This document shows, piece after piece, positions 36,651-58,100 of a stretch of DNA of 64,000 nt; position 1 is the first letter of the stretch, and the number at the start of each line of letters is the position of its first letter. The DNA comes from Bryoerythrophyllum caledonicum (lineage: Eukaryota > Streptophyta > Bryopsida > Pottiales > Pottiaceae). Below the pieces are notes generated by a model. The model saw only the letters and a list, made by a program, of their open reading frames with translations, was not told the DNA's origin and did no database searches. Position numbers and translations under genes: made by a program. Location: NCBI GenBank assembly GCA_963971425.1, contig OZ020526.1, forward strand, positions 3,995,976 to 4,059,975, in the 5' to 3' direction.

Positions 36651-39600
36651 TTATATTTTTTATGGTGTAATAGAATGATTAAAAGTATAAGCATGTACTT
36701 GGCACTCATATAACATCTTTAAAAGATACGTTTGGAAATATTTTTTTCAACAATTATCTTTCAAAATGTATGAATATTCAAATTTGAAGAAAGTAAAGAA
36801 CATGATGCTTGTACACACTTTTAATTGTTTTAAAAAAAGGTAGAGCATATATTATTGGCCCTTATTGATGCCTCACAAATATTTATAATCTTACTTAATT
36901 TGAAATTTAACCTTTTGAAATTCCAAAAACAAGATTGTATATTGACTTAAGGCTAAGTATTCATAAATACTGTGGTTTTAAAAAAGAATTGGCTCACTAT
37001 CATGGTTGATGAGAGGTTATGGTGGCTTCCTACCTGTCCCCAAACTCTCTGTCTCTGGACTGTGAACTCTCCTCTCTACAAATCCATGTGGTGTCGATTG
37101 ATATCCGGGTTGGCAATAAAACCTAAGTGGCGGTAGGAATTGTGGGAGCAAAGGTGTGTAAGGAAGCAGTACATGGGCGTATAAGGGAAGCCAATTTGTG
37201 CTTGGAGCAGCAAGAGCCCAATCAGGGACCCAGTGATTCACTTGTCCTTGTGCAAGGCGAGTAGCCGCTGAAGGAAGCACACATGCGCACCCTCCTCACC
37301 GGACTATCTTTGCTACTAATTCCCACTTGAATTGTGAGAGCTAGCCATGCAAGGGCTAGGGACAGGCCTCCTGAAAAAGCCTTACAATCGAGCCCCCTTT
37401 AGTTTGGATGAAGCCTCGAAGTGGAACCTACAAATGACGCATCTCTTTGAAACAAAAGCTCAAGAATTCAACCGGCAACCAACTTCAACACCAACTTATA
37501 TATGCGGCTATAGAGGAAACCACAACCACAATTCTTGCTGCAAATACATGAATAAAACGAGGCGATGCCATGATAGAAACATTTACAATTGGAAAACATA
37601 AATATGCACAACAATCATCCTCCTTATTCCATTGTCATAATGACTAGAGCCGCACCATACGCATACCATCATCAACTCAGTTATTGGTGAGATAAGAGTA
37701 TAATAAGAAGTTCATAGCAGAATATGGAAAGTTTAATCGGCATCAATCATCTCTTGTGTTAAAGTTTTTTGATGCAGGTTGTAATGTGAGGGTGGTCTTT
37801 GTAGGCTTTAGGAGGTTTCGGGAAACGTGGGTTGTGGCACAATTGGATTTGAAGCTCAAAACCCAAGTTTTTAGAGCTGGTGGAAATTGTGAACAAGTTT
37901 GTGTGGAGTAAATTGAAGCCGCTTACCATGCAAGCCAGGCCATCAGGATTCTGTGAGCTCTTTCATCTTCTTTTGAGGTTTTGTTGCTAGGATTTGGAGG
38001 TGTTTCGCATTTAATCACACTATTGTTTGTGTCTGTTCTTGAGCGTCTAGCGATATTTTGTAGCTGCAAAATGTAATTCAATGCCTTATAATAAAATCCT
38101 TAGGGTTTTTAGCACTTGTTTCTTGTGAGAGTCAATGCATCATATTTTTTTCACCTTGTGGTCTACATAATGCTTGTCTTTTTGAGCAAACTGAAATGTG
38201 ACAAAGGAAAAATTTTGAAGTCTTGTACATGTTTGTAATTTTTTGAAAAGAGTTTATCAATTTGACCATATCCAAACACATCAAATTATGCCAATTCCCA
38301 TTCCACTATGGTCCTACTTCTACTTCTAAAATTGCATGACAAAAGAACAAAATTCTTCTGCTTCTAGAACAAATAGCGCCACAAAATGGTGACCACTACG
38401 ATCTACCTTTAAACTACCTCCAAAGTATGTCAATTCCAATCGCCACTCTAAACTTGACTCCCAATCCTCTTTGACAATCCAAAACTTATACAATGGCGAG
38501 GAATCCAATCACAATCTCAGAAGCAGTCTTGCCAAAGCTGAGACGAAGGCCAAATATGCACATGCGGGCCAAGGCGTGGACAAGGTGCTCAAGGGCTTCA
38601 AAACTTTTGTTCCACTCAATACCCTCCATGGGACTCTGAAAACAAGAATGGAGACATGCGAGGGTTTTATTGGTGGGCTCTTGTCTAAGGCTTCATCCAA
38701 GTTTAGGCGGGCTCAATTGTGGAGCATTTTGAAAGGCTTCTATGCAACCCTTCCCCAGCTAACTTCTAAATCCAAGTAGGAGTTAGTGGCAAGACGGGTT
38801 GCCCTCGCTACTAAGGGCCGCATGGAAACGGCGACCGCCTCTCTACTCGGTGAGCCACGTTGCCCAACAGCCTCCCCGTTCCAACGTGCCCAGTGATTAG
38901 GCTAGATTTGAGAGGCACTTCCTTGGGTCTGGTCATGATCAGCTTCCTCTAGCCCAGCTTCTCCATGTTCCCTTGGCCCAATGTCAGGCCTTCCGTCATA
39001 CCCACTCAAAGCTTGCAATATTTTTTTAAAATTTGATTCTTGTCCCTCGTCTTTCGCCCCTCTAGAACATGGAGGCATCAGAACATCTCAAACTCCGGAA
39101 CTCTAGGACTCTTGAGTTCCTCAAGCAGCTCTAGCCTATTAAAGACTTCTCACTTTGACTAGTTTATTTTTTCAATCCGTACGGTCAAAATTCAGAAAAA
39201 TTTCATTACATCCTCTCATATAAATTTAGTAGAAGATCTTATAGTTACATTCTAAAAAAGATTAATCTTGGTAGTTTTAATCAGTGGAGTAGAGAATCCT
39301 CTAATATGCCTTGGTCCTAGGTTTAGGGTCTAGTACACCACATACTAATTGTTATATAAATCAATTCACCAATTCAACATATTTATGTGTTACGTAGGTC
39401 CATAAATGAAAATAAAACTTCAACTACATCATTCAAATGTGTAATCATTGCACATTAGATCATAATTACAATCATACACAAACTTGAATGCTATTTCAAA
39501 TTACATAACTTCAACTTTATTGCACAAACATTTGATGGTCACAATTTTTACAAGAGATTGATGTTGCATCTCCTTCATTTCAAATGTGAGGTGTTGGTGG

Positions 39601-39859
39601 TTAGAAAGAAGTTTTTGGGATGGGGAAGTGAGCTCCACGTTTTCTGGTGAGGAGGGCTGCAAAGGAGTTAGTCTCAGGGAGAAGTGTATGGCAACAAGAG
39701 AAGGCTGGCCTTGTTGAAAGTCCACATACACTAGGATCTGTGATTAAACGTGTGGGCTTGGGGAGAGCGTGTGTTGGACAGGACTTAAAAAACTTAGATC
39801 TGGATTAGTGAAATAGAAAAACACTAGTAGAGGTACTGATCTGCAAGAAAGTGAGCTGA
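36651..39859. other. Intergenic DNA with low-grade repeat remnants
   Basis: 37017-37280 (minus) and 37347-37601 (plus) are open but unrecognised; the latter contains CGYRGNHNHNSC, faintly like a zinc knuckle. 38471-38779 (plus, 102 codons) has no known domain. 38800-39150 shares short GC-rich phrases with 8530-8650 (GCCCA.CA.GCTCCCC), so both may be remnants of one repeat family. 39150-39859 is AT-rich. Confidence 0.35.
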
Positions 39860-41536
39860 AAGCGTTGGGATTTTGGTGTTGGCTTACAGATCTATCCTTA
39901 CGAATGTAGATCTAGATCGGATCCAGATCCAAGAACTGATAGCATCAGAAACGCCATAGCCCGCACAAACTCCACTGCGAACTCTGAGCTAGTACCTTCA
40001 TCAGCCGAAATTGAGAGACGCAGTAACCACCGCATAGCAGTCCGTAAGCACGCGAGAGAGACACCCAGTAACGGAACCATCAGCAACAAGAGCTCAAGTC
40101 GACCTGACGACAACAACATAAACCGACACCCGAGCACAAGACCTACCAGCCAAGATCAACAGACTGTGGAAACAGTGAGTAAGAACGTCGCAACACCTGC
40201 TGCTGAAAGACGTCAATCCCACCAGCAACAACACCAGGCTGCACATTCTAACCCTACAACTCAACTTTGCTGCTATTCATTATATGTTGTATCCTCACTA
40301 AAAATTTTAGCACTCACCACAGTTCTAGACACAGTCAAACCACCGTTTGCACACCTGCTACATCACACATTCACTCATACACTAGGCACGAGCACATGTA
40401 GCAACACCATAATCCACACACGAAGTTGGTGGTGTAACTCGGTTTTAAAAATTGTGCGGAAGCGCTGTCTAATTTTCTACAGATCAGGCAAGAAAAGATA
40501 CAAAATAACTGAGCTACAACCAGCTACACCACCGTACGAGAAAGATAGCCTGCAGGTACAAGAGCTTCGACATACGAGCTACACCGAGACTACAACAGCA
40601 ACCTGCAAACCAACACAACGGGTCAGAATCACTACCGGCCAAGATCAACAGACTGTGGAAACAGTGAGTAAGTACGCCGCAACACCTGCTGCTGAACGAC
40701 GTCAACCCCACAAGCACCAACACCAGGCTACACATTCTAACCCTACAACTCAACTTTGCTGCTATTCATTATATGTTGTATCCTCACTAAAAATTTTAGC
40801 ACTCACCACAGTTCTAGACACAGTCAAACCACTGTTTGCACTCCTGCTTCACCACACATACACTCATACACTAGGCACGAGCACATGTAGCAACATCACA
40901 ATCCACACACGAAGTTGGTTGTGTAACTCGGTTTTAAAAATTGTGCGGAAGCGCTGTCTAAATTTCTACAGATCAGGCAAGAAAAGATACAAATTAACCG
41001 AGCTACAACCAGCTCCACCACTGTACGCGGAAGATAACCTGCGGGTACAAGAGCTTCGACATACGAGCTACACCGAGACTACAACAGCAACCTGCACACC
41101 AATACAACAGGTCAGGACACCACTCAGCGACAACCAACCCAACCAAGATTTTGACTGTCACCTAGATAACTATACAAACCAGCTGCAGCAAGCACACGTA
41201 TCCACGTCTTTATTAGGACGAAGGAGGGGAGCCCAAAGACCAAAAAACAAATCAGCAACTGCACGCCGCACAGACGACTCATCCGTCCAAACCATACCCA
41301 ATGGAATGGACTGGGTGAAACTTGGAAAAAGTAGAGTCTGGACCGCAGCAAGGAGAAGCTCACGCCGCACCAAAGAGACCGAAACCGAAGCAACATACGA
41401 AACAGAAACCCGTACAAGCAATAGCACAAGCAAGCAACAGAAGAAATCAAGAAAACCCAGGGAGTGCAACATCGAGACACGAAGAGATACATCAACACTA
41501 CAACGAGAAGGACATGTATTTGAACCTCAAGTATAG
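39860..41536 (+). CDS. 5' open frame (ORF0-like) of the giant LINE, ending at TAG
   Basis: In the frame that continues into ORF1, no stop occurs from 39860 to a TAG at 41534-41536. The translation consists of the two monomers (each about 163 residues, containing LCCYSLYVVSSLKILALTTV and WCNSVLKIVRKRC) followed by a basic, R/K/T/S-rich tail (GRRRGAQRPKNKS). There is no in-frame ATG until about 41308. The DNA is A/C-rich and poor in T, which lowers stop frequency, so openness alone is weak evidence for translation. It may be 5' UTR, a non-AUG-initiated ORF, or an N-terminal extension of ORF1 interrupted by one stop. No known domain is seen. Confidence 0.4.
   Translation, partial: KRWDFGVGLQIYPYECRSRSDPDPRTDSIRNAIARTNSTANSELVPSSAEIERRSNHRIAVRKHARETPSNGTISNKSSSRPDDNNINRHPSTRPTSQDQQTVETVSKNVATPAAERRQSHQQQHQAAHSNPTTQLCCYSLYVVSSLKILALTTVLDTVKPPFAHLLHHTFTHTLGTSTCSNTIIHTRSWWCNSVLKIVRKRCLIFYRSGKKRYKITELQPATPPYEKDSLQVQELRHTSYTETTTATCKPTQRVRITTGQDQQTVETVSKYAATPAAERRQPHKHQHQATHSNPTTQLCCYSLYVVSSLKILALTTVLDTVKPLFALLLHHTYTHTLGTSTCSNITIHTRSWLCNSVLKIVRKRCLNFYRSGKKRYKLTELQPAPPLYAEDNLRVQELRHTSYTETTTATCTPIQQVRTPLSDNQPNQDFDCHLDNYTNQLQQAHVSTSLLGRRRGAQRPKNKSATARRTDDSSVQTIPNGMDWVKLGKSRVWTAARRSSRRTKETETEATYETETRTSNSTSKQQKKSRKPRECNIETRRDTSTLQREGHVFEPQV
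40151..41117 (+). repeat. Two tandem 5' monomers of 489 bp
   Basis: CAAGATCAACAGACTGTGGA starts at 40151 and again at 40640. The two units align along their length with scattered substitutions (three differences in the first 60 bp) until about 41117. A partial upstream match (CTACCAGCC versus CTACCGGCC) precedes the first. 489 is a multiple of three, so the reading frame is preserved. Tandem monomers at the 5' end are typical of LINE promoters such as those of mouse L1, so a promoter role is plausible. They lie in a stop-free frame without an ATG. Confidence 0.85.
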
Positions 41537-41722
41537 CGGAAGCAAGCACGACAACAATCACAGAAACGCAGGATCAACATCAAATCGTCAACAGACGAAC
41601 AGACCCAAGACAGCCTAGTAAGAGCTCCAGCAAACGTACATAACACCAGCAGCAATCGCAGCACTGCTGTAATCCCGCAGCCAACAGCAAGGAGAATCGA
41701 AATCCCCGGAGACCCCAACGAC

Positions 41723-43852
41723 GTGCTGCCAACCTTAGCCTCGAGACCGAGAACACAGGAGAAAAGAGGCACAGAAGTAGACCACCAGAAGAAGCGCATC
41801 GGCAGGACAAAACGAACCTACACACCAGCAATAGCAGAGAGTGAAGAAGACCAAGGGGAGCCGATACTGGAGGAACGTCAACCACTCGCAGTCACCCTCG
41901 ACCCCATTCCGAAAACCAGCAACCGCGTCCCTACAGCATCTGCAAGACCCAACGGTCAAAAAAGAAGACGCCTGACATCAACACCGATAATCTGCACATC
42001 GCCGAGACTAAAGGAGGCGCCGACAGCACCCGTCCAAACCCCAGTAACGGAGCCCGCCAACAGTCCAAGCCAAGGCGGAAGCATGATGCGACTCGCCCAC
42101 GACACATCCCCCGCCTCCCCGATCAGTCCCACTCAATCTCTCTCTCGACCTAGGATGCTACCCGCACAAGAAACAATGCACCTGCAACAGGAGACTCGAG
42201 TAGAGGAAGAGGCAATGGACATCGAAACCCCAAGAAGCAACCTCAGGCAAACCATCCAAGACAAGACATCAGCCTCCACTTCTGCCAAGACACATAACCC
42301 CCACAAAAAACCAAGAGGTAATTCCCAAACCACAGACCATGTATCTTCACCTGCTATATCTACATTCCACTTCTGGCTTGGCTTCTCCACCATGGAGAAG
42401 CTCGCACAAGATGCAGGGCAAACCGTCTTGCAGAAAGGAGAGAGTATCAAAGATATGATCACAAGAGGTGTGCCTAAGAGTGAAGCCGAGGAAGCTCTGG
42501 AGGCCACAATAGCTTTCCCAAGGATTCCACAGTTACTCTACCCCAAGGTGAGAAATGACGGTGTTGAAGGTCAGCACTTCAACATCACACAATTACCCTT
42601 TGACATTCCTACTAACAGTGAGACTGGATTATCTCACGATTTCCACATTGCTATTCATTTTGAGTTGCCTACTCAACCTTTATTTCACGATGACATTAAA
42701 AAACTCTCTAAGGCTAGACTTAGGCATATGGACATACCATTGGGTACTAAGCTCATTGACCCCCTCGCAATCCTTTGCAAAGGGGTCAAAAAAGAGGGAC
42801 AGAAGGGTGTGTTTTCAGGTATTATCAAGTTGCACCTACTCCACCCAGAGACTGATGCTATCGCCCTCCTTCGCGGCAACCGTTACTTTGTTTTGCCTCT
42901 TGACCCATTAGGCCCAGTGACCTTGGGGAAAGTGTGCAAAACATGGCACGCGGTGGCTCGCCAGGGCCTTTCGGTCCGCATCAAAAGCGACAATCTCAAG
43001 GGCATCACCGCACGGGCACTATTTTATGATGTAGTGAAGAATGGTTTCGATAGAAACCTTGAATTCGAAGTGACAGATGTGCAAAAGGAGTCAGGAGACT
43101 CCCATGCTTGGATTGTTGCACCTACCCCCACACAAGCCAAGAAGTTGGAGCGCCATCAAATCACGACCTTCCAGGAGATCCTCACTGCCAAGGTTAGTAG
43201 CTCGGGTGTTTTTAACACCAGTGACAGAGCCAAGAGGGATGCCTTAACACTCACTCTCTCCCAGCTACCCATCCTCATGAGCGTGGATGATACCACGGCT
43301 GCCATCACTCATGCTTTGGAGGCCAAGAATGTTGTCAACATATGGTTTCACAAAAAAGAAGATGGCAAGCACAATGGTTCCGCGAATGTCAAAGTCCTCA
43401 ACCCTATAGTGTATCGGCAACACCTTAACAAGACTTTCAACATCGGACTTCATCAAGTGGAGGTTCGACCACATCGCCGAAGCTTGGAAGGTAATAACCC
43501 GCCATCTGACACCTTGGTGACAAAATGGGGGTTCAATGATATTAACACGGCGCTAGTCAACACGGTGGCCTCCATGACGAACACCCCCAACAACACCAAC
43601 ACTCTACGGGAGGAAGTGACCGCAATCATGGAAGAAAGCCACAAGCAACTCCGCCTGGAGCTCTCTTCCTTCAAAGAGGACATCATTCGGGAGACTAGGG
43701 AGTATACCGACACACGCACAGAGGAGGTACAAACCAAACTCAAGAAGGTGGAACTACTCATGTTGAATGCCTTGTCAGTGATGCAAGACATTAACAGTGG
43801 CGGCCCGGCGTTGTCCCTCCCACCCCCGAACGACTCGTCAAACGTGGATTGA
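41723..43852 (+). CDS. ORF1 of the giant LINE (putative nucleic-acid-binding protein)
   Basis: Frame open to TGA at 43850-43852. The first ATG is at 42083; the same frame is open back to 41537. The N-terminal third is P/T/S/R-rich and disordered-looking (arginine-rich RKRR-type patches). From about 42380 a folded region begins, MEKLAQDAGQTVLQKGESIK, with SGIIKLHLLHPETDAIALLR and an RRM-like alternation near 43260-43480: LPILMSV, an alpha helix TTAAITHALEAKN, VVNIWFHKK, NGSANVKVL, VEVRPHRR. The C-terminus (43600-43790) has a coiled-coil-like stretch (EEVQTKLKKVELLMLNAL). LINE ORF1 proteins usually bind element RNA and chaperone reverse transcription; I infer the same, without a firm domain match. 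Its base composition is balanced, unlike ORF2, which starts right after it. Its end overlaps the ORF2 frame (open from 43795), so reinitiation or -1 shifting are both possible. Confidence 0.7.
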   Translation: MLPTLASRPRTQEKRGTEVDHQKKRIGRTKRTYTPAIAESEEDQGEPILEERQPLAVTLDPIPKTSNRVPTASARPNGQKRRRLTSTPIICTSPRLKEAPTAPVQTPVTEPANSPSQGGSMMRLAHDTSPASPISPTQSLSRPRMLPAQETMHLQQETRVEEEAMDIETPRSNLRQTIQDKTSASTSAKTHNPHKKPRGNSQTTDHVSSPAISTFHFWLGFSTMEKLAQDAGQTVLQKGESIKDMITRGVPKSEAEEALEATIAFPRIPQLLYPKVRNDGVEGQHFNITQLPFDIPTNSETGLSHDFHIAIHFELPTQPLFHDDIKKLSKARLRHMDIPLGTKLIDPLAILCKGVKKEGQKGVFSGIIKLHLLHPETDAIALLRGNRYFVLPLDPLGPVTLGKVCKTWHAVARQGLSVRIKSDNLKGITARALFYDVVKNGFDRNLEFEVTDVQKESGDSHAWIVAPTPTQAKKLERHQITTFQEILTAKVSSSGVFNTSDRAKRDALTLTLSQLPILMSVDDTTAAITHALEAKNVVNIWFHKKEDGKHNGSANVKVLNPIVYRQHLNKTFNIGLHQVEVRPHRRSLEGNNPPSDTLVTKWGFNDINTALVNTVASMTNTPNNTNTLREEVTAIMEESHKQLRLELSSFKEDIIRETREYTDTRTEEVQTKLKKVELLMLNALSVMQDINSGGPALSLPPPNDSSNVD

Positions 43853-43932
43853 CCAAGGACTACCCACGACAGCATCACCATTGGGTGATTCACCATCTAC
43901 CCTTATCTCTCATCTCTTATAGGCTCCTCAAT

Positions 43933-46900
43933 ATGTTTCTTCCCTCTTTCACATTTCACATGTTAGCTTTCTCTTACATATTTATAACACCTTTACTCTC
44001 ATCAGATATACAATCATATCTTGTTTCTACTCCTACCACACATTTTCTCCCCCCTACTCTCTTAAATGTAATTCCCTCCACACATATGCTAAGTTTTCTT
44101 ATCTTCTTTAGAAGTTGTCTTCACTTTATAGTATTCCCACTCACAATAAATACTACCTTACACTCTCTCACCACTCTAATAGCTCACTTTCATCTCTCCA
44201 ATTGCCAAACCTCTCTATCACTAGTCATATCTCTCAATAGAGCCTCACAAACTCAATCTTTCCACAAGATGAGTAGTAGACCCAAAGAGAGACTACACCT
44301 TATAGTGACATTGTACTATCACCAAATTCAATATATTAATATCCACCCCAATTATACATGTCTATGGCATGGGAATCATACCACTCAAACCTCATACGCA
44401 ACACACAACAATACACATACAAATCTTTTCAATACTCACTACCACCAAAGTACAACCAACACACAACTCCCCTACACACCTCTCAAACATTTACAAACAA
44501 GAAACCCAAACATCACCAATTCCCTCCACAATAAATCAATACAACTACCAACCCCACACACACAACCGAAACCAAAAAAAGATACCCTCCCATCAATCAC
44601 ACACACACTCTATATACCCCCCCAAAAAACAACCTATCAAAATCCTCCAAAAATCAATAGCAGCCATCCGAAATCGTTAAACAATAAAATAAACACAGAT
44701 ATGCACAAATGTAAAGCAAAAAACAAAGCATATAATTTTTTCCAGACACCTGATAGAACAAAAGACACAAACACCAACACAACTAACAAATCAAAGTTTA
44801 GAATACAAATACTTAGACACCTAGCGATATATAGATACAAAAAATGTAAAAGATACTACATTAAATACATACAATATTTCAAAAGAACTACACATTGTAC
44901 TCAATACAAAAATACTGGTACGTATATTGGTACATATACGAACGCAAATACCAAAACATATACTTACACAAATGTATGTGTAAATACTAATATAAAAACA
45001 AACATAACTACATATACACACACATACACAAAAACAACCACACACCGTCAAGAAAACATACACACATACAAAAACAAATACATACGATCAAATAAACAAC
45101 AAATAAAATATCAAATCCACACACAAAAACAAAAAGTCCTAAAACAAGACAAAAAACCCACCTACTACAAAATACTAACACAAAGAATGAATAGTAACAT
45201 AAAAACAAACACAACTACATATACACACACACACCACATACAAAAACAAAAAATTCTAAAACAAAACAAAGAACCCACCTACTACAAAATACTAATAAGT
45301 GGATTAGAAAAAATTAATCAAAGTAATAGATTAAATATACAAACAAAAAACAAAAGTATCAAAACAAAAATAAAAAATAAAAGGAATAAGAGAAAGGATG
45401 GAATTAGAATAAATAATAAAAGGAAGGAGAAAACAAGTATCATAACTACATATAATAAAAAAGGAAACAATAGTAATGAAAACAATAATAGAAATTATAT
45501 AACAAAGATTCATAAGGGTATAAGGAAATATAAACTCAAAAACCATCAAAAGACAAGGAATATTAAAATCACGAAGAATAGGAAAATCAAGGAGAGTAAA
45601 AAGCGATATAATAAATTAAATAGGAAAAAGATAGATACTTATAAAATTTCAAAGGTTTCAAATAGAGCAAATAATATTAAAAATAAAAGAACAAAATCGG
45701 AGAGGATATGTAAGGAGAAAATAAAGGGTAAGATAGAAAACCATTTTTATAAGAATACAAATAACAAGAACATAGCAACGAACAGAAGTACTAAAAATAG
45801 AATATGCTTCCTAAGGAAATTAAAAATAAGGGATGGAAAACTAACCAAAATAGTAATGAGAAACAATTATCATAATAAGAACATAGTAAGAAACAGAAGT
45901 ACTAAAAATAGAATATGCTTCCTAAGGAAATTAAAAATAAGGGATGGAAAACTAACCAAAATAGTAATGAGAAACAATTATCATAATAAGAACATAGTAA
46001 GAAACAGAAGTACTAAAAATAGAATATGCTTCCTAAGGAAATCAAAAATAAGGGATGGTAAATTTACAAAATTAGTAATGGAAATGAATTGTAATAAGAA
46101 TACAAATATTAAGAAAGTAGCTATAAACAGCAGTACTAAAAATAAAATATGCTTCCTAAGGATTTTAAGAATAAGGGATAGAAAAATCACAAAATTAGTA
46201 ATGGGAATGAATTATAATAAGAATACAAACATTAAGAAATTAGCTATAAACAGTAGTTCTAAAAATAGAATATGCTTAATAAGGAATTCTAAAATAAGGG
46301 ATGGGAAATTCACGAAATTAGTAATGAGAATGAATTATAATACAAATATTAAGAGATTAGCTATAAACAACAGTACTAAAAATAGATTATGCTTCACAAG
46401 GAATTCAAAAATAAGGGATGGAAAAATCACGAAATTAGTAATGGGAATGAATTATAATAAGAATAAGAATCTGAAGAGTACTACTATAAATAGTAGTACT
46501 AAAACTAGAATGTGTTTCCCAATAAATTCAAAAAGAAGGGGTGGAAAATTAATTAAACTTGTAATGAAAAAAAAAATTTATGTCTCGCTGGCCGGGGGGG
46601 CGCCGAAGCCGCCAAAAATAGAATTACTAAAAATAGAAATTCTAATAATAGTAGGAATACATATGAATCTTTTAAAAATAAATATCAATCTGTTTTTAGA
46701 AATCATAGTTTTAGACAAAATTTGTTTAGGAAGAAATCCTTTAGAAAACTCATTATTTCAATATACGGGTACATATACTGATACGTATACTGATACGTAT
46801 ACTGATATGTATACTGATACGTATACTGATATGTATATTGATACATACACCGATGAGTATACTTATAAATATACTGATCAATATACTGGTACGTATATTA

Positions 46901-47817
46901 ATACACATACTGATATGTATATAAATACAAATATTGATACTTATACAAATGCAACTACCAATACAAATATTGGTACGTGTACTCATGCGAATACTAACAC
47001 AAATACTAACAAAGATACTGATACAAATACCAAGACAAAAACCGTGACATACACTAATACAAACACACATAAGAATACTAATATAATACCACATAATACT
47101 ACATATACACACACAAAGTCAACCACACACCATCAACGAAACACATACATATACATACACACATACAAAGACAAACACATACAATCAAAAAAACACAAAT
47201 ACCAAAGCCACATTCAAAAACAAAAAATTCTAAAACAAAACAAAAAACCCATCTACTACAAACTACTAATATTAATTGGAGGAGACATGGAGACTAACCC
47301 AAGACCCATGCCGAACACATTAAAAAGACACCCCGCTTCGCACAAAAAGAATGCCAAAACATATTTCATACCAAATACTAATACAAACACCAAAACAAAC
47401 AATTGTACAAACCACAAAGTATATAATAACACCGCATATGAAAAAAAGGACTTAAAAGCCACTTCAAAAACCAACATAAACCCACATACAAATAGTCTTA
47501 AACACAATAGTTACATATGCACACGGACAAAAACAACCAAGATAAAATACAACCAATCATACATACATCCATACACTACTAAAACAAAAACAACCACAAA
47601 AAACACATGGACAAAAAATAAACTAAAGACGAGAACAACTACACCTACTATAAAAATAAATAAACCCACAACTCACACACAAAATACAAACATCCACCTA
47701 CCCCCAAACCAACAAGTCATTAATAACACAACAAAGCCTTTAAAATACACTTCTAAATATATATACCACAAACTTCTACTACTTCTAGGAGGAGACATTG
47801 AAACCAACCCGGGACCC
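43933..47817 (+). CDS. ORF2 N-terminal leader, low-complexity, ending in a 2A peptide
   Basis: The first in-frame ATG of the ORF2 frame is at 43933 and the frame runs uninterrupted to the 2A site. The first ~90 residues are hydrophobic and T/S/L-rich (MLAFSYIFITPLL). Then come about 1,200 residues dominated by N, K, T, H, Y and I, including Y-T-D-T periodicity and a seven-unit repeat. No domain is recognisable. The nucleotide sequence is A/C-rich and G-poor, so some of the openness is compositional; nevertheless the array units are all multiples of three, which argues that the frame matters. If the 2A works, this leader would be released from the enzyme polyprotein during translation. It could be a nucleic-acid-binding or spacer region; its function is unknown. 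Confidence 0.6.
45121..45303 (+). other. Two truncated copies of the pre-2A module
   Basis: In the ORF2 leader, QKQKVLKQDKKPTYYKIL (about 45121-45176) and QKQKILKQNKEPTYYKIL (about 45241-45294) match the sequence that precedes the 2A-like motif at 47284 (QKQKILKQNKKPIYYKLL). In both, the following GGD.ETNP segment is absent. They are read here as decayed duplicates of the 2A region. Confidence 0.65.
45781..46570 (+). repeat. Seven-unit in-frame tandem repeat of 37-41 codons in ORF2
   Basis: Units begin at 45781, 45892, 46003, 46126, 46249, 46366 and 46489, so spacings are 111, 111, 123, 123, 117 and 123 bp: every one is a multiple of three. Each unit encodes a variant of STKNRICFLRKLKIRDGKL followed by TKLVM and an asparagine-rich linker. 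The first three units are nearly identical, the later ones more diverged, implying recent expansion at the 5' side. The basic, cysteine-containing unit may bind nucleic acid (inference). Confidence 0.9.
46583..46613. other. 31-bp GC-rich island in AT-rich ORF2 leader
   Basis: After a 10-base A run the sequence switches to a strongly GC-rich stretch containing GGCCGGGGGGGCGCCGAAGC, then returns to A-rich sequence. It keeps the reading frame (SLAGGAPKPP). Nothing like it occurs elsewhere in ORF2. It may be a filler insertion or the scar of a foreign fragment, or a sequencing artefact. Confidence 0.5.
46768..47060 (+). repeat. 12-bp (TATACTGATACG)n array and its degenerate continuation
   Basis: TATACTGATACG/ATG units repeat at 12-bp spacing from about 46768 to 46930, encoding Y-T-D-T/M, then degenerate into T-N-T-N-rich codons to about 47060. 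A weaker version of the same pattern occurs near 44918-45010. Period 12 keeps the frame. Confidence 0.8.
47215..47307 (+). other. Degenerate 2A-like motif (NPRP)
   Basis: The frame reads KPIYYKLLILIGGDMETNPR followed by P and M. It has the hydrophobic run, the D-x-E-x-N-P core and the final proline of a 2A, but the invariant glycine of NPGP is arginine. Glycine at that position is required in known 2A peptides, so this copy should not support skipping. The 25 residues after it (PNTLKRHPASHKKNAK...) closely match those after the intact copy 510 bp downstream. Confidence 0.8.
47764..47817 (+). other. Canonical 2A ribosome-skipping peptide
   Basis: The codons read YHKLLLLLGGDIETNPGP, followed by methionine at 47818. 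This fits the 2A consensus D-[V/I]-E-x-N-P-G-P (47794-47817), with the leucine-rich helix in front that known 2As carry. In 2A sites the ribosome fails to make the bond between the last glycine and proline, releasing the upstream protein and continuing downstream. 2A peptides are established in some non-LTR elements (trypanosome L1Tc, sea-urchin elements). Here it would separate the low-complexity leader from the enzyme part of ORF2, about 650 bp before the APE domain. Confidence 0.85.
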
Positions 47818-50800
47818 ATGCCCAATATACTAAAAAGACATCCTACATCACATAAGAAAAATGCCAAAATCTACTTTATACCTAATACCATAAAACTCCA
47901 ACCAGAATATGAACACATTGCAAAACCCTTCGCACCATTTCTAAAAAACACACATACATTACACCACATGTACAACACTTCCCACCCAAACATTGCCCAA
48001 TTCATACAACAAAAAAGTACGCATCCAACACCCCACATCTTATATGCCCTAATAATCACTACTCATCCAAACATAGATGAATGTAACCAACTTCTAAATC
48101 CACAAAATTTGAACACAATTACATGGACTAATACACTCCTACAAACCTTACTAACCTTACAAAACCCACCAGAACGACACATTTGTACTCCACACCCCTA
48201 TACTGAATTCCTAGTAGACAACCAAAATATTATAAACCATGAGAACTCAATACATAAAAGATTATACGACTTCTTACATAGTCAAGACATACCACCCTCA
48301 AATGATATAATAAAACTAAAATTCCCTTACCTCCCTAACAACCTCATAAATGAATCATTAAAATGTCTAGACCCTATACCAGAATACACCCACCCACCCC
48401 CACCTCTTCCCTACATCCCTCCTCAAAATCAAAACATTAGACCAAACCAAGAAAATACATACATAATCACATGGAATGCCTCCTCACTAAACACTGCCCT
48501 TCCTAGTTTATAAACTTTAGTCGCAAACACAGACACACCACCGGCTCTTATAGTTATACAAGAAACAAAACTAACCGCCACAAAATCTACAAAATATATA
48601 CAAAATATATTTCAAGACTATAAACTCATCTTTAACAATACACATGCACTTACAAGATGCATGCAACAAAGGAGACCATACACACCGGGCCGCGGTGGCC
48701 TCCTTACATTAGTACACAAAAAATATACATTCCCAGGCAACATCAACAAAATCCCTACTCCAATGCACATATCACCATACATTCAAATAATTAAAATCAC
48801 TAATCACCCACTACAATCGTGGTTAATCTTTCACATGTATATGCCATCCCATCCCGAAGATACTAGATTTCTCTTAAATATACAAAACACTATTACAACC
48901 CATATTAATAATCATCCCAATCATACATACCTATTATGTGGAGACTTCAATAGAGACATAGCGCTAATTGGCCGCCAAAATGGAAACCATCATACCCCCC
49001 CTCAAAACATTGATTATCAATGGCGCCGCTTCACAGAAAACTTAAACTTCACTTACATCAATACCGATACACAATTCTCTAGACAAGGTGGCTATAATTA
49101 TAGTGATTGGAGTCTAATAGATGGTTTCTATATAAATACAAACAACAACACACAATACACCTCCACAACAAACAAAGATATTATTGTCAATTCGGACCAC
49201 TCACCCGTACAACTGCACATCCCAAATAACACACTAATTAGTAGAACTCCTACAATCCCAAACAAAGACACTATACGCATACTCAACCCCATCCCAAAAA
49301 CCAACATAGAAAAATTCAACACAAAATTCTTCGAAGAAAACTCCGTACAAATAGACCCCCTCATAAACACTCTTGAAAATAATAGTCAATTAACACAAGC
49401 ACAATGGCAAGAAGCATGTCACACCCTAGACAAACTCATAAATAAAATCTCTGATACACTAGAACAAACTTGTAGAGCACACCCAATACCCCAAATGACA
49501 AACAGAACCTCTCAACAAGGCGGGTATCTACCCCGCAAACTTTCTAAAACTTGGAAACAACACTTAACCACATACCATACCATACGTAAAACCATTAGAA
49601 TTGTAAAAAACAACCCCCAATGGCGTAACCACCCCATACACAACGAACTACTAACTATACAACACATCCAAATCCCTACCGCGCCGCCTCCGGACCTTCC
49701 CCAAGATACATGGATAAAAGATATCGCGATAATTGCAAAAAATGCCAACATACAAGCCCGGAAAATAATCACAAAATACACAAAAGAAAACATTAAAAAA
49801 GCCATCTCAAAATATAGACAACTATACGAAATCAGCCCCAAAAGAATTAACAAAAAAGTCTTTAAAAACCTTGAATCCCCACCAATGGATTGTATCAAAG
49901 ATCAATATAATAATATTCTAACTAGCCCCGAAGATATTGCAAATGAAATATTTAACCAACAAACAAAAACCAATAGACCAACAGTACCAACATGTAATTA
50001 CCAGCCACAACATACAATAGAATGCACATGTGCAATACGCCAATACCCTTGGCACGACCTGGACGGATATACCCTTGACAAACGGGGAGAACCAGAAATT
50101 CCACTACATAAATACCTCAACAGAGCCACATACGACACATGCCTTCAAAATCTTGGAAATAATAAAGCCCCAGGCCCAGATCGCATACCAAACTCAATAC
50201 TAAAAAACATGCCTCCAAGATTTCACAAGCTACTATTTCTATTCTTCTCCCATTGCTATAAACAAAAACAGATACCAAACTCATGGAAATTAAGTACAAC
50301 AATTCTACTATACAAAAAAGGCGACCCGTCCATACTACCCAACCATAGACCAATTGCACTAGCTAACACAATATACAAACTCTTTACCAGTACACTCACC
50401 TCCATACTATCCTCATTCGGCGAAAAATTCAAAATCCTACATGATAGTCAAGAAGGATTTAGAGCAGAGAGAAGTACCGCAAGACAAATACAAACTATAA
50501 TAGCCGCACTAGAAGACGCAAAGTTTACTAACCAAGATATATACATACTATACGTGGACTTCAAAAATGCCTTTGGCTCAATTGACCATGCCCGACTTCT
50601 AGCAATAATGATGGACCTTGGTTACCCAAAAGATGCAACTACACTTGTTGGAAACATCTATTCTAAATCATCTACATGTTATACCGGTGAACACTTTGGG
50701 AAAACAAAACCTATACCCATCCAAAGAGGAACAATACAAGGGGATACCCTCAGCCCATACCTATTCATTATATTTCTAGAACCACTACTCAGATGGCTAG

Positions 50801-53800
50801 AAAGAGGAAATTACGGATACACTTTTGGCACATCACAAGTCATAATAAACTCTGCCGCATACGCAGATGACCTAGCCACCATAACTAACAAAATCAAATC
50901 AATCCAAATACAACTAAACAAAATTGATAGATATTGTAAATGGGCCGGTATGGACGTAGGTGTCCCAAAATGTGCCGCTACTGGATGCCCAAACAAATCC
51001 AAATTGAACCCTACCACTTTCAAAGCCCTAATGCAAGCCTCGAACATCAATTACCGCAATCAACCGATCCCCATACTACATCAAAATGAACCATACATAT
51101 ACCTAGGCACAAACCTTGTTCCTACACTAAAATGGAAAATCCAAATCCACACCACAACGACAAAACTCATCAAACAATGCAAAGAACTAACAACATGCCC
51201 AGCCACCATGAAACAAAAAATAAAAATGGTTGATACCGTACTACGCCCAGGTGTGGCATACAGTTTCTACGGTGTACCATACTCTATGCCAGCTATCAAA
51301 AAACTTGATAAAAAAATAATAGCCATACAAAAAACCATATGTGGATTACCAAAATGTATGCCAAATGCAATAACCCAACTACCACATAACCTATTTGGAC
51401 TTGAAGCTTTCTCCCTCAAAAATGCATACCTCCGATGTATAGGCGAACAACTGCAAAATGCTTTAAACGATAAAGGAAGACTTGGGAAAATATATAATGG
51501 ATTAACTCACTATGTCCTTGCCCAATATGGTGGCGCTGAAAACATACCGAGAATTAAAAAAAGTGACTGTATAAGATCACCAATAACACGAATATTCTTC
51601 TTATTAAAACATATAGCTAAAGCCCACCTTAAAAGTACGCTCCCGAACTTCCTCAGGAATCCTACAACACTAGAAATACTATGGCGTCAAGAAACACTAA
51701 ATCATAACACACTCAATGCCCAACTCTCCCAAAAGCTTCTACAAAAACTCCTCTCAAAAAATATTTTTGAACTAAACCAAATTACTTTACCTAACGGTAC
51801 ACACATCATGAACAATGAGGACTTCAAAACCTACCACTTCACCCCATCTAAACTAATAAAGAGTGCCCTAAGTGTTGCTAAACAACTATTTTGCCACCTA
51901 ACATGCCCCACTATATGTCATACCCCTTGCAACATACACCCATACTCTCATACACTTAAAGATCCATTCATCACCCTCAACAATAACATCATCCCAAGAA
52001 ATATTCCCACACCAACCAATCTCCCTAACCCTCCACATACATACCACCCCCGCCCCCCAACATACATCCCCAAAAACCCTACCACATACCCCATTAATAA
52101 TATCATAAACCATAAACATATCCAACACACAGACACAAATAACATACAAAATACCTACACAAAATATCTATGCCAATGGCAACACAATGATAATACATAC
52201 AATAAATGGCTACCCCAAAGAGACCTTTTTCCACGGCATGACACCAATACCTCCACACATAACATTGAAAAATTAAAACAATACTACCAAAAGATCCAAA
52301 ACAAAATATACTCAGATATCATCCTTGCCCACCATCCACAAGAACAATTCTCAGACTCAAGGTCCGTAGCACCACCCATAATAATCCCACTCTTAAACAT
52401 CTACACGACAGAATGCAACCCCGAAAATGATATCTTTACATCCTCAAACACAATTCAAATAGTTAACAATCAAGCACATCTATTCGAAGAAAACGGCCGA
52501 CATTTACACACCATCCCGGTTACCCGACTCCAATGGCTATGGAATCAATATAATACAAAGATACAAACTCCTACAAACATCGAACCAACGACCCAACCCT
52601 TTGAAACCGAACTAATATGGCTCTACCAAAGGTATAAATACCGAATACCAAAAACTGACCCCCTCAAAAATGCCCAATACACAATACCCACTCTCATTTT
52701 AGACTCACTGATCTCATCCTTTAATATCGAGCAATCATACTTCTCTTCCCCGGTCACGTGTTCTACCAAACTAAAAAAATTCTACTCACCCTATGAAAGA
52801 GACAAAATATTCGGATCCCTAGGAAAGGCCTTTGACTACAAATGGACCGGTAATGGCATAGCCCACCCCCACAACGAGAAGGACATGGAACAAGCCATAC
52901 ATTGGGCTAGACTTGCCGCCAAACATGATCCAAATAACACAAAAACAATCATCATCACACCGAACAACAATTGGTACCAAAACAACAATCAAAATCCAAA
53001 CCCATTCCCAGATTCCCATATCGTTGCAATATTTGAAGCAGACACAATACCATACGAAGAACCTACTATTCCACCCGAGCTAAAAAAACCCCGAATAGAG
53101 CCATCTACATTACAAATACTATGCGTCCATCATCAAAATCAAACCCTTGGCTCCCTAGAACAACTTGCGGAACTTACCTCCATAACAAACAATCTAGGCA
53201 TACATCGACTATACACAAAACTGGCCCCACCAACACCCATACAAACCCCCGTAAACAAAAGTAAAAACTGGTCAAAACTAAACTATGTCAACAACACATT
53301 AAACTATTCGATCATACCTCCCCCTCTTCCAGATTATCAAACCTATACCACAAAAAAATTTAACCCCACATACAGTTATTACACCGACGGCTCCTTTAAC
53401 CCACCAGAACAAATTAGCCCGGGCTCTTGGCGCAGAGAAAAAGCTGGCTATGGCATATATAATTCTACCAAAGAAATTAAACTAGCCAAAAGACTTCATG
53501 GACTACAAAATATCCTCAGAGCAGAACTCATGGCCATCCACAAAACACTACAAATCATCACAACAAAATACAATGATGAACCCGCACATATATTCACCGA
53601 TTGTATAAATGCACTCTACCTACTTAACACTCAAATAACACACCCTACCCTTCACAATAGCCACCCCGACCAAACCATATTAACATCAATGGTCCAAATG
53701 TTACAAAACCGTACACAAATCACAACCCTCCACAAAGTGAGAGCCCATGCTAACATTGATGGCAACGAACAAGCAGACAAACTAGCAAAAGAAGGGCGAG

Positions 53801-54840
53801 AAAAATCACACAAAAACGCCAAAGACCCACACGAACATGCCCATGCTACCCCATACTACTTTCAAAAAGAAGATTGGCCTTCCAAAGAAGATACCCCCGA
53901 CAAAGGCCCAATTAGATTCTTAGGCAAATATCTCAAAAAACAAGACCTCTACAACAACCTTGACACAATTTCAGAAAATATTCCTAACATAGAAAAATGG
54001 ACTAACAATAACGACATAGACAATGAACTCTCTACAAATTTTTGGAAAAACCCCATCATCTCAGACTCGCAAATAACATGCCTCATCAAATTTCGTACGG
54101 GTCAATATATGGGAAACGCTCGCAAACAACTCTTCTTTGGAATAGAAAGATTCCCATCCATAACATGTCCCATATGTCCCTCAACGGACCCCGACACATG
54201 GCTCCATGTCCTACTCAAATGCCAAAACCACCACATACACTCTCTAATTGTTAAAAGACATAATAAAGCGGTATGGGAAATCCGAAAACTAATCACCTCC
54301 TACAATAAATCGAGATGTTTTATACTAATGAACGCCGGTATTTATAATAACAATCCACAAGAGAATACAGTCCCCCCTTGGCTACTCCCATGCTCGTGTA
54401 TGACCCAAAGATGTCATTGCAACGCTAGGCTCAAACCAGACATCCTTTGTGTTAAAGGCTTACCATACAATGACCCACCACCCGATAACATCAACCAAGA
54501 CTACACCATTCAATTCATTGAATTCACATATTGCAACGATAGATTTTCCCCGGAAACAATCCAAAATAAAATAGATAAATACCAACCTCTTATTGACGAC
54601 ATCATCGCCCTAGGATGGAATGTGGACCCCCTTGTTGTAATCACATCCGGCGCTCGTGCCACCACCTTTATCCCATCTATAAAGACTCTTGAAGATACCT
54701 TCAAAATACCCATTGATACAATTAAAAACACCTTTAAAAACATTAACACCACCGCTACTCAATATGCCATGTCTATTTTACTACACAAACGCAAAATTGA
54801 AAACAACCAAGCCCTTCCCGATACACAAGACCCCCCTTGA
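47818..54840 (+). CDS. ORF2 enzyme polyprotein: APE endonuclease, reverse transcriptase, RNase H, CCHC, RLE-like
   Basis: About 2,340 residues after the 2A, interrupted only by TAA at 48511-48513. A novel ~190-residue region comes first (47880-48440). APE endonuclease 48460-49220: WN (48472-48477), QETK (Glu 48562), GDFN (48940-48951), SLIDG and SDH (49192-49200), all catalytic positions present. Reverse transcriptase about 50150-51150: APGPDRIPNSIL, VDFKNAF (Asp 50557), GTIQGDTLSPYLF (from 50728), YADD (50860-50871). A long, unassigned spacer (51150-53340) follows. RNase H 53370-53800: TDGS (Asp 53386), Glu 53524, FTD (Asp 53599), AHANIDGNEQAD (His 53746, Asp 53776). CCHC knuckle Cx2Cx9Hx4C at 54166-54222. 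RLE-like region 54250-54700: RHN, KPD (54433-54441), EFT (Glu 54520) and KIDKYQPL. The polyprotein would nick target DNA, copy element RNA and degrade it. The stop lies inside APE, so this copy is probably inactive unless read through. Confidence 0.85.
54250..54720 (+). other. R2-type restriction-like endonuclease region at the ORF2 C-terminus
   Basis: After the CCHC knuckle come KRHNKAVWEI, a cysteine cluster CSCMTQRCHC, RLKPDILCVKG, IQFIEFTYCND and NKIDKYQPLIDDI, then a hydrophobic VDPLVVITSGARAT. R2-group elements have a C-terminal CCHC followed by an RHN block and a PD-(D/E)xK nuclease with K-P-D and a downstream acidic residue, then K..KY.PL. The order agrees. The gap from the KPD aspartate to the glutamate (27 residues) is longer than the 12-14 usual in R2, so catalytic competence is uncertain. 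If correct, this is the second endonuclease of the element. Confidence 0.65.
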
Positions 54841-55087
54841 TTTTTCCCCCGCTTCGATTTTTCTTGACTGATTAGTCTTGTGGCTCATGGCTTCCTGCTT
54901 GTTTGTTTGTGTTTTTGGCTACTTGTTTGGTAAGATGGATGTTTAGTTGGTTGGGTGTCTTGCTTGGCGGGTCTCTGGCTACCCGTTACATAGTGTCTAC
55001 CCTCGAGAGGGGGAAGTAGTTCCTTCTTACTAATTCCTTGTCCGGTGGACATGGTCTTAGTAGTGGAACGAACAGACACTTTATTCA
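54841..55087 (+). other. 3' UTR of the giant LINE
   Basis: About 250 bp between the ORF2 TGA and the terminal hairpin, T/G-rich in contrast to the A/C-rich ORF2. It is presumably the region bound by the reverse transcriptase when priming. No poly(A) signal or poly(A) tail is present, consistent with a non-poly(A) 3' end. Confidence 0.6.
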
Positions 55088-55142
55088 CGCCGGTCTCCTT
55101 CGGAGACCGGCGTTCTTCTTCTTCTTCTGCATCTCCTTCTTC
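55088..55142 (+). other. 3'-terminal hairpin and TTC-repeat tail of the LINE
   Basis: CGCCGGTCTCC (55088-55098) and GGAGACCGGCG (55102-55112) form a perfect 11-bp stem with a TTC loop. It is followed at once by five TTC repeats (55113-55127) and, after TGCATCTCC, two more. A structured 3' end followed by a short tandem-repeat tail instead of poly(A) is known from several LINE groups (RTE, I-like and others) and marks the 3' boundary here. Confidence 0.8.
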
Positions 55143-58100
55143 TAATGTCTATGTAGCACAAATCTCACAAGTCAATTTTGGAAGTTGAATGTGATACAAG
55201 TTTTTGAGAGGGCGGCTTCAACGGAGGCTTTGAGGTACTTTCTTCACTACTCTCTAATGCAACTCTTTTTTTCCATGTCCCATCCTTGTGCGCCTGGCAT
55301 TCTTGTATAACCAAACTAGATCCTCAAAAAGGAAGTTCAATGGTGGCATGCATCTAGAACATAAAAACTTTAGAAAATAATGTCATGAAAGTCTGAAGAT
55401 GTTGTAGCTTGTGTTTCTTCTCATTTTTAGTATAATCTCCTACAAAAGCTTCAACACTTTGTCATAATGTCTTTGCTTCTTCACTTGCACTAAGAAACTT
55501 TGCATCATTCTTATTGGATAATGAAGATTCTTGAACCTCTACATCCATATTGGTCGGAGAAATTATTGCTACATCAGACGTATCATCTTCCATTACCATC
55601 ATTCCTTCCACAACTTCATTCCTTTTTATGCTTGAAAATTCTCTTTCACAACCCATTGCACCCCAAAATATGTTTGCAAGCGGAATTCCAGTCTAGACAA
55701 TTGCAAAAATTTATGTTCAAAGATACATTGTATGAAGTGCGTAGAGTACTCTCACTTTGTACACAAAATAATAAATGTTCGTCATTATTACTAGTGAGAC
55801 ATTAGATGCCGTCTATTAATAAGATTTAAACATCCCCTTGCATCTTTTCAAACAATGTCAATGTCCTTTATCATTTCCCCTTCTTGAAAAACTCCTCCAA
55901 ATCACCTATACATAAAATATCAATTAGATTTTAATATTATACAAAAAAAAACATCATGTAAATAATATAAAGTAAATGAAAGTGGAAGGGAAAGTAGAAG
56001 GAAGTGGATGGGGACTCATTTTTGGATGTAGCATGATAGAAGTTATAATGAAAGAGAGGAAGATAGTACAAGTAGAAGAAATAAAACCAAGGCAAAAGCT
56101 AGTTGAGGAAATAAAGGACAAACAACCTCATTTTTCACCTTTTTATCCACTGCAATTGATTTTCATCATTAACGAATGAAATTCAAAAGGAGACTTGAGG
56201 AAACCTGTCCACAATTGCTTCATCTTGTCTTTAAAAGCAAAGGCCATTGCAAGAAAAACTATGGCTATGATTATGGATACGGAAAAAAAAGAAAAAAAGA
56301 ACAAAGGTTTTGGGGTTTAGAAGCAAAAGTTTCAACACGCGAGAAGAGGAAAAATGAATGAGAAGAAGGAAGTCAAATTATACTATAGGAAGAGGAAAAA
56401 AGGAAGGTATTAAAAATTTGAGAGAGCAGCTATGGCTGTGGCCATGATTGTAGCTATGGCATGAAGATAGGAGAGGAGAAAGAGGAAGATTTGGAGGATG
56501 ATGAAGATAACCATGGTTGTGGTTATAGTCGTGGTTATCGTGGAGGGTTAGAGGAGGCAAAGAAGGAGAAAGACGAGGCAAAAAATGGGGCATTGAGGAA
56601 GCAAGAAGGCGGTTGTGGCTATGGCCGGGAGTATGGTCATGGCAGAGAAGTAGAAGGGATGAAGGCAACTTTTTGAAGACTGAGGAGGGCGGTCAAGACG
56701 ACGAGGGCGTTCAAAGCGATAAGGGCAATTAGACAAGCAAGGGTAGTAGAAAAAACAAAGAGAAATCCAATTATAGCCTAGATAGTTCTAACTCCAACCA
56801 TAGCCTAGTCAACTCTGACTCCAGCCATAGCCGTGGAGAAAACGACATTGAGTAAGGTCAAATTTTGGATGTTTTGGATGCGTTATTGGGTTAAAGAAAT
56901 AATATAGAGTGTATACAGTGAAAAAGTGGTTTCGTTCTAGGAATTTAGAGTGAAGAGAAGGAATTTTCAAAAGTTTCTAAAATTAGTATTTTTGGAAGTT
57001 TGAAGAAGGATTTATGCTTTTGAGGGATTTGGTTATTGAAAATTAAGGGACTTGGATAGGGTTTTCCAATGGATATAAGTCTAGATTCCGGAGAGTAGAA
57101 GGGGTGGGTGAAATGATATAAATTTTTGGGGCTTTAAAGTTTCAGAAGCTATGGAGGAAGGAGAGCAGAATTTGGGGGTGGTAGAGGAACGAGGAGGAAG
57201 AGCAAGGCCTGTTTGGAAGGGAAAAAATCTTTACTTCCAATATATGGAAATATACTTTGGATACTATGGAAAGTGGGAAAAATCATGTTGATGAAGATAG
57301 TTGCACTTGGAAGTTTACTTGGGGGAATGGGTGGCTATTACTAAACTAGGGAGGCTGATTGTGGAAAAAAACATGTTTAGTTAGGATAAGAGATCTTGAG
57401 AGACGGCTAACCTTCATCTGTGTTTAATGAAGCGATTAAATCGGAGAATAATCGTGGATCCGATCCATTGGAAGACCGGACCCAACTTTCGGATCCTGAA
57501 CACTAACATCAATGGTTGTGCAACTTTGGACTATTATGTCTCTAATGAATGTTTAGCCTTGTGTGAGCCTAATTTTTGGTTCACATTTGGTTTTAGACCA
57601 ACTTTTAGAATATTAGTGGATTGGTTAAGAAGTTAGTAATTATATGTGGTTAGTTGTAGTGAAACTTTGAGGAATTCATTGAATTAGTATTAGTTTTGGA
57701 ATTGAAGTATTAGTAGGAAAAATTGATGTGCGAGAAGTTGAAGACACAAAAAGAAACTTAAGTTGTGGTGCAAGTGGGGGAAGAAGGAAATTAGTATTAG
57801 TAGTGGGAGGTTTTAAGAAGTTAGTTATAATTAGAAGTATAAAACTAGATTAGGTAGAAGGTTAGAAGTGTAAAAAGTGTGTGGTGTTAGAAAATTAGTG
57901 TGGAAAATGATTAGAATTAGAACTAATGGTAGTAGAAGATAGTAGAATTGTAATGGACAAGAAAACAAATTTATTAGTTAGAGGTGGTGAAGTTAGGAAA
58001 GAGTTGGAAATTTTAGTTATAGGATTTAGTTATAGTATTTTTATATAGGATTTACTCATACCATGAGGTGTGAAGGAGAAGCAAAGAAAATTGAAAGAAG

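Follow-up and report, generated by a model that had tools for sequence, protein, structure and literature searches.

A probable Dualen/RandI-type non-LTR retrotransposon with two predicted endonucleases and a PCIF1-like domain in one reading frame

A single reading frame in the window, the 64,000-nucleotide stretch of DNA analysed here, is confirmed to encode a predicted APE endonuclease, a reverse transcriptase (RT), an RNase H and a CCHC/PD-(D/E)xK nuclease (restriction-like endonuclease, RLE) related to that of R2. Between the RT and the RNase H it carries a further domain, missed by the initial annotation, which matches PF12237 (PCIF1_WW) at 8.1e-11. Taken as a whole, the evidence makes it highly probable that this is a non-LTR retrotransposon of 15.5 kb with two endonucleases, of Dualen/RandI type, in the genome of a green plant, probably a streptophyte, and that it would insert by the route proposed below.

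The ends of the element, at 39617 and ~55126, were obtained by comparing the window copy with other genomic copies, giving a length of ~15.5 kb (Table 1). A 5′ start at 39612-39626 is shared by six of the eight 5′ stretches compared; L036 matches at only 78% from 39630 and L035 does not match. The initial annotation had placed the polyprotein at 47818..54840. The ORF2 motifs do lie there, but 47818 is an ATG just after a 2A-like peptide and the element itself extends beyond both limits. Frame 1, from 47599 to 54840, encodes in order the 2A-like peptide, APE, RT, RNase H, CCHC, RHN and KPD...E...KY, and the motifs of the initial annotation were all found in this frame where it had put them, its CCHC reading CPxC..H..C. 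Pfam reports RVT_1 at 2.5e-27 and RNase_H at 1.9e-12 in the window. The window APE reaches 2.6e-4 with Exo_endo_phos_2, under the curated cut-off, and the related family Exo_endo_phos is over its cut-off in relatives. A chromodomain-like match (E 0.062 in the window, 3.4e-4 in P0037, 9e-4 in P0028, 0.13 in P0021) is reported in none of the remaining clade proteins scanned with Pfam. No Rfam family matches at the gathering threshold in 39000-56000.

Table 1. Features of the element and its junctions, in window coordinates.
Feature	Position	Strand	Basis or remark
Whole non-LTR element	39617..55126	+	~15.5 kb; comparison with other copies
5′ target site duplication TGCATCTCCTTC	39565..39576	.	
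40-nt filler, from duplication to common 5′ end	39577..39616	.	
Two tandem monomers of 489 bp each, near 5′ end	40143..41115	+	
ORF1, 709 aa, coiled-coil-like end by eye	41723..43852	+	Pfam: no family
123-bp tandem repeats in low-complexity stretch of ORF1-2A interval	45754..46548	+	
StopGo/2A peptide ...GGDIETNPGP	47764..47817	+	Motif
APE endonuclease	48466..49203	+	Motifs and Pfam; in-frame TAA at 48511-48513 in window copy
Reverse transcriptase (RVT_1)	50323..51108	+	Pfam, PDB profile, tree
Chromodomain-like stretch, weak	52099..52230	+	Under Pfam cut-off everywhere
PCIF1/CAPAM methyltransferase-like domain, AHPH at NPPF position	52225..53205	+	PF12237 8.1e-11 (over cut-off); PDB 6irv 7.6e-14
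RNase H	53374..53799	+	Pfam
CCHC finger, RHN, PD-(D/E)xK restriction-like endonuclease	53815..54837	+	Profile and motif
3′ hairpin, 12-bp stem, UUC loop	55087..55113	+	Two pairs covary between subfamilies
(TTC)n tail	55113..55127	+	
3′ target site duplication TGCATCTCCTTC	55128..55139	.	

The RT block is present in at least 104 copies of 98-100% protein identity in the 437-Mb assembly, and to judge by these near-identical copies the element has probably been mobile recently. An open frame of exactly 2809 codons occurs at 15 of the at least 104 places. The window copy has its APE interrupted near the start by the in-frame TAA, and in other copies the frames are open and longer.

Both nucleases were examined across relatives. 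In frame 1 the APE motifs WN, QETK, GDFN, SLIDGF and SDH are complete. GDxN is found in all 34 rows that have 450 or more residues ahead of the RT, and a loose [ST]DH follows it in 29 of these, in three cases far downstream. For the RLE, a profile built from 7 of 38 RLE rows (alignment A4) recovered R2 structures from the PDB at 7e-9, 1.1e-8 and 2.6e-5, in alignments covering the zinc finger and the region that follows the PD/E residues. Together with the motifs, the best of these values bears out the earlier claim of one polyprotein with an APE and an R2-type RLE. The match to R2 is made by the profile only: as a single sequence the RLE finds no PDB match, and single stretches are weak (0.31, and 1.2e-4 in 9nl3). 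Further R2 entries, which we take to be those of Bombyx, score only 0.58 with the profile. Another RLE profile, used to search the relatives, was iterated, and P0006, P0052 and P0053, which it went on to match, had by then been absorbed into it; the RLE-only protein P0005, which lies outside this profile, matches it at 1.3e-16, and the APE-only row P0007 weakly, at 5.5e-5.

Alignment A2 comprises 32 RLE rows and omits P0018 and P0046 (short RLE match), P0019 and P0037 (RLE not reached) and six truncated rows. No variation is seen in 32/32 rows at C, C, H, C, R, H or the D of PD; 31 rows keep the P of PD, and the acidic position holds E in 30 rows and D in the other 2. The lysine of PD-(D/E)xK is not uniform, the first candidate being K in 26 rows and A in 6, the second K in 8 and Q in 23. 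Since the RT block recurs in at least 104 copies and these RLE residues are invariant in all 32 rows, the observation of two nucleases is not due to chance. Insertions in or beside other copies occur in this genome, as at L010, and PCIF1, RNase H and RLE might in principle come from two neighbouring elements joined artificially, by fusion or in the assembly. However, the same domain order recurs in many copies of this genome, and a match to the RLE profile follows PCIF1 in 33 of 33 clade rows, from other sources, with at least 1200 residues after the RT (only a short one in P0018 and P0046). We therefore reject the artefact as extremely unlikely.

In a tree of 59 RT rows, the window falls in a 41-row dual-nuclease clade (support 98/93), apart from the L1, R2, APE-only and RLE-only rows; no RTE-labelled row is in the tree. 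The initial annotation had named a firm grouping of the RT within L1 or RTE as a refuting result, and no such grouping is seen among these rows. The RT groups neither with L1 nor with R2, and unlike R2 the element has an APE. Support for the deep order is weak (31/17). Flags mark eight rows for long branches and the row nearest to the window, P0002, for composition. The clade was gathered with PCIF1-containing queries and includes some near-duplicates, and members lacking the domain may be under-sampled. Given this placement, the pairing of two nucleases is of an already known kind, Dualen/RandI. By its predicted domain layout the element is of that type, in a tree whose rows do not bear the name; none of the relatives found by sequence search is called Dualen or RandI.

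Dualen/RandI of Chlamydomonas and other algae likewise joins APE and RLE in one element (PMC3636483, PMC4640811). Non-A simple 3′ repeats are also common to both (PMC3747384). The initial annotation had treated the RNase H as an addition; this is rejected, as an RNase H together with the two endonucleases is already reported for Dualen/RandI (PMC4640811). Its statement that dual nucleases are established only in green algae is not supported either, LINE/Dualen being annotated in cryptophytes too (PMC12747079). The element differs from Dualen/RandI in its 2A peptide and in the PCIF1-like domain, of which there is no mention in the available excerpts of those descriptions. It differs further in that no cysteine protease appears in the window parts scanned: Pfam finds no protease in five pieces, with 43853-47769 lying outside them. 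Dualen is said to carry a cysteine protease (reportedly Kojima and Fujiwara, 2005), which we count here as accessory. Among the relatives, Pfam gives C48 protease matches in P0004 and P0013 and a sub-threshold Josephin match in P0030.

Other LINEs share parts of this architecture. R2 and further RLE-only elements have the same C-terminal CCHC-RLE and the closest RT in the PDB, without APE, RNase H or PCIF1, while L1/I/Jockey-type APE elements have the same N-terminal APE, without RLE or PCIF1. The suggestion of a streptophyte host is favoured by one gene of one 19-kb contig: rbcL, at one of its three places in the assembly, gives 692-702 bits with the 15 best-scoring PDB sequences, presumably from land plants, and 665 with 1gk8, presumably from Chlamydomonas. 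Plasmid sequences gave no match for rbcL.

The domain between the RT and the RNase H is an unexpected component. PF12237 is CAPAM-like and not a WW domain (PMC7641849). A profile from 9 of 36 PCIF1 rows (alignment A3) matched PCIF1 structures in the PDB (6irv at 7.6e-14, 6irx at 4e-13), with NPPF aligned to the position of AHPH. One profile round from three seed rows found the domain in 35 proteins. All 35 clade rows that extend 900 residues or more beyond the RT contain it, and the six clade rows lacking it stop no more than 603 residues beyond the RT. The sister pair P0050/P0051, joined to the clade at 96/72, carries both an RNase H and an RLE, the latter divergent (profile E 2.2e-7 and 3.1e-5), together with a Ulp1-like match (in P0050 just under the cut-off) and, in P0051, an APE. 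PCIF1 gave no match in the pair, and the domain was therefore gained in, or lost around, the 41-row clade. In the genome, 150 of 2614 candidate PF12237 places were scored and all are over the Pfam cut-off; 33 of these places have frames of 3087 codons. The presence of an RT was not part of this count. PF12237 was found in none of 14 control genomes, of which those identified are prokaryotes, so that this comparison says little about eukaryotes.

NPPF is the key catalytic motif of PCIF1 and is needed by the human enzyme (PMC11345611). It occurs in 0 of 36 rows, where NPEY (13), HPPF (3) and SPPF (1) are seen and four rows align poorly. AHPH is found in the window, in 7/7 readable further genomic copies (an eighth, L040, is unreadable) and in 21 of 25 rows of a second set of relatives, the others being P0059 (AHPN), P0073 (AHPY), P0079 (gap) and P0058 (distant). 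In human PCIF1 the site that recognises the m7G cap lies between the helical domain and the methyltransferase domain (PMC9916840, PMC11345611), and Drosophila PCIF1 is catalytically dead yet still binds the Pol II CTD (PMC9916840). Given the replaced NPPF, which the human enzyme needs, the cap binding of that enzyme and the dead Drosophila relative, binding is favoured over methylation. Our leading reading, held at about even confidence, is that in this lineage the domain would bind nucleic acid, perhaps the element's own cap, and not methylate. Homology to PCIF1 and the NPEY rows, which keep N, P and the aromatic residue, speak for N6-methylation of adenosine by the domain, with RNA or DNA of the element as substrate, and clade rows with NPEY might still be active. 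Against the distribution of NPPF and AHPH and the example of the dead, CTD-binding Drosophila protein, such activity appears quite improbable for the element.

Compared with PCIF1/CAPAM itself, homology in the methyltransferase region is shared, whereas here NPPF is replaced and the domain lies inside an RT polyprotein. Cytosine-methyltransferase retrotransposons (a LINE and DIRS in Symbiodinium, Gypsy in Klebsormidium) have captured a methyltransferase too, including one in a charophyte, but theirs is a DNMT and not of the PCIF1 family, and the Symbiodinium LINE has it in ORF1 (PMC5890265). A PCIF1-like domain in such LINEs is apparently undescribed: among the matches listed in open-licence papers, with subscription literature outside the scope, none describes a LINE-encoded PCIF1 domain. 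A survey of eukaryotic adenine methyltransferases reportedly exists.

The coding parts of the copies were compared by dN/dS, which points to mostly purifying selection on RT, RLE, APE and the PCIF1-like domain; the values for L002 and L009 rest on few changes and the copies are not independent. The RT gives 0.03-0.04 in all six comparisons with enough changes and the RLE 0.07-0.13 in five of six, the exception being 0.50 in L014. For the APE, four of five values lie at 0.13-0.27, and the APE is disrupted in L005. The PCIF1-like domain gives 0.14-0.30 in six of seven and 0.44 in L022, and a stop codon lies within this domain in L019. The APE stop of the window copy, the L014 and L022 values, the L019 stop and the L005 APE count against the account as a whole.

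Upstream of ORF2, copies of ORF1 lie 7.6-7.9 kb before RT copies at nine loci including the window. Two further ORF1 loci lie 17.8 and 28.9 kb upstream of an RT, with other PF12237 copies between. Given the repeated spacing, ORF1 is assigned to the element. In L037 and L038, which belong to another subfamily, the predicted ORF2 frame opens within the end of ORF1 and runs to the edge of the RT block, where the sequence examined ends. The 2A sequence has 564 genome matches at up to three mismatches, and its reversed control none. DIETNPGP, a peptide known here from sequence alone, fits the published StopGo/2A motif (D/G/C/N)(V/I)ExNPGP (PMC12846837). In L037 and L038 the DNA differs by synonymous changes and DIETNPGP is unchanged; the strict motif also occurs in P0025, P0036 and P0058, proteins of the same kind. 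2A peptides are known in APE-type elements (Odon 2013, as cited in PMC12846837), and among the matches listed in open-licence papers (subscription literature being outside the scope) none describes one in the Dualen/RandI group.

All seven insertions in which both junctions were read carry short duplications, of 12 bp in five, 11 in one and 12-14 in one, the upper value of which may include two bases of tail. Among 42 mismatched junction pairs, no match is longer than 9. Every duplication starts with T, which may partly reflect pairing with the tail. R2 and other RLE-only elements are mostly site-specific, whereas the seven sites here have by eye no common motif except this T. In six copies, fillers of 15-59 extra bases separate the 5′ duplication from the common 5′ end; the seventh has none. 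The C7 filler has a single other genomic match, with one mismatch, in antisense and within the PCIF1-region span of a related element, as expected of template switching; the C10 filler has no other genomic match.

The 3′ region folds with a z of -3.37 into a 12-bp hairpin followed by (TTC)n. Tails of the (TTC)n and TTCTC types are non-A simple 3′ repeats. In alignment A5 (10 of 21 copies), two hairpin pairs differ on both sides between subfamilies (UA vs CG, CG vs UA) and 98.1% of cells pair. None of 500 shuffles reaches the covariation score or the paired percentage, 213/500 reach the number of covarying pairs and 500/500 the number of pair types. This covariation is one contrast between two subfamilies and may stem from a single event.

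These features can be assembled into a route of insertion. ORF1 and ORF2, to judge by the layout, would lie on one RNA. The 2A peptide would part an N-terminal low-complexity portion from the APE-RT-chromo-like-PCIF1-like-RNase H-RLE protein, a release suggested by the motif. This protein would recognise the 3′ hairpin, backed by the covariation, and the UUC tail, nick one target strand and copy the RNA from the nick. A cut in the other strand ~12 nt away would yield the short duplications observed. The 5′ end would be closed with frequent template switching, as suggested by the observed fillers, one of which is traced to a donor. Finally, the RNase H would remove the template.

Which nuclease makes which cut is a matter of more tentative assignment. 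Our preferred reading, held at less than even confidence, is that the APE would make the first nick and the RLE, held by its zinc finger, the second cut at a fixed distance. A duplication of 10-20 bp is usual in both LINE types (PMC6895275), and its length therefore cannot tell an APE cut from an RLE cut; the narrow range of 11-14 bp, seen in seven copies, is no more than a hint of a single complex that spaces its cuts at a fixed distance. A single working nuclease could also be envisaged, the RLE making both cuts as in R2 with the APE as a passenger, or the reverse. In R2-type elements one RLE is believed to cut both strands, some RLE elements (R8, R4) leave duplications of 9-13 bp (PMC6895275), and the APE of the window copy is interrupted by a stop. 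Yet motifs of both nucleases are retained in most clade rows, under mostly purifying selection, and a passenger nuclease would be expected to decay over such distances. We thus regard a single working nuclease as unlikely.

Elements with two nicking enzymes have been placed where APE replaced RLE in LINE evolution (PMC4640811). With at least 104 near-identical RT copies and 564 2A sites, the division of labour between APE and RLE is therefore testable from insertion footprints and a defined protein. A speculative extension, to which we give only a small chance, is that a captured cap-methyltransferase fold became fixed in the clade as a reader of the cap: by holding its own long RNA at the capped 5′ end within the integration complex, the protein would coordinate APE on the first strand with RLE on the second, 12 nt away, so that full-length 15-kb copies could be inserted. 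The PCIF1-like domain, found throughout the clade as sampled, would tie LINE integration to cap biology and could serve as a clade-defining trait.

Over much of the element the + strand is strongly depleted in G and T, with a GC skew as low as -0.50 and an AT skew as high as 0.40. With so little of these two bases, the RNA of the element probably forms little structure. Directly after the ORF1 stop, frame 1 runs on for 1554 codons without a stop, a stretch of low-complexity repeats poor in G that may or may not be translated. The window has a second 2A-like motif, which is degenerate and precedes the intact 2A by about 510 bp; the pair looks as if the 2A region had been duplicated in tandem. 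P0008, an APE-type RT protein without PCIF1, carries a strict 2A motif at position 33, close to its N-terminus.

Locations of features in the window and elsewhere in the genome
Feature	Location
Open frame 1	43849-48513
G- and T-poor + strand	44001-54000
Degenerate 2A-like motif, GGDMETNPRP	47277-47310
Junction of two oppositely oriented copies	L010, about 4790
Broken, divergent relative of the element (L040)	C15:9049509
Second PF12237 family, example	C8:15561129

In the fetched stretch L010 two copies of the element adjoin, probably as the result of one having integrated within the other. In the C7 copy, the 5' filler matches the antisense strand of L040. Near-identical PF12237 copies in 3087-codon open frames, which account for 33 of the 150 scored PF12237 places, form a second family in the assembly.

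The RT proteins P0050 and P0051 combine an Ulp1-like match, RT, RNase H and a divergent RLE; APE was found in P0051, and scanning both yielded no PCIF1 match. This pair possibly represents an intermediate lineage.
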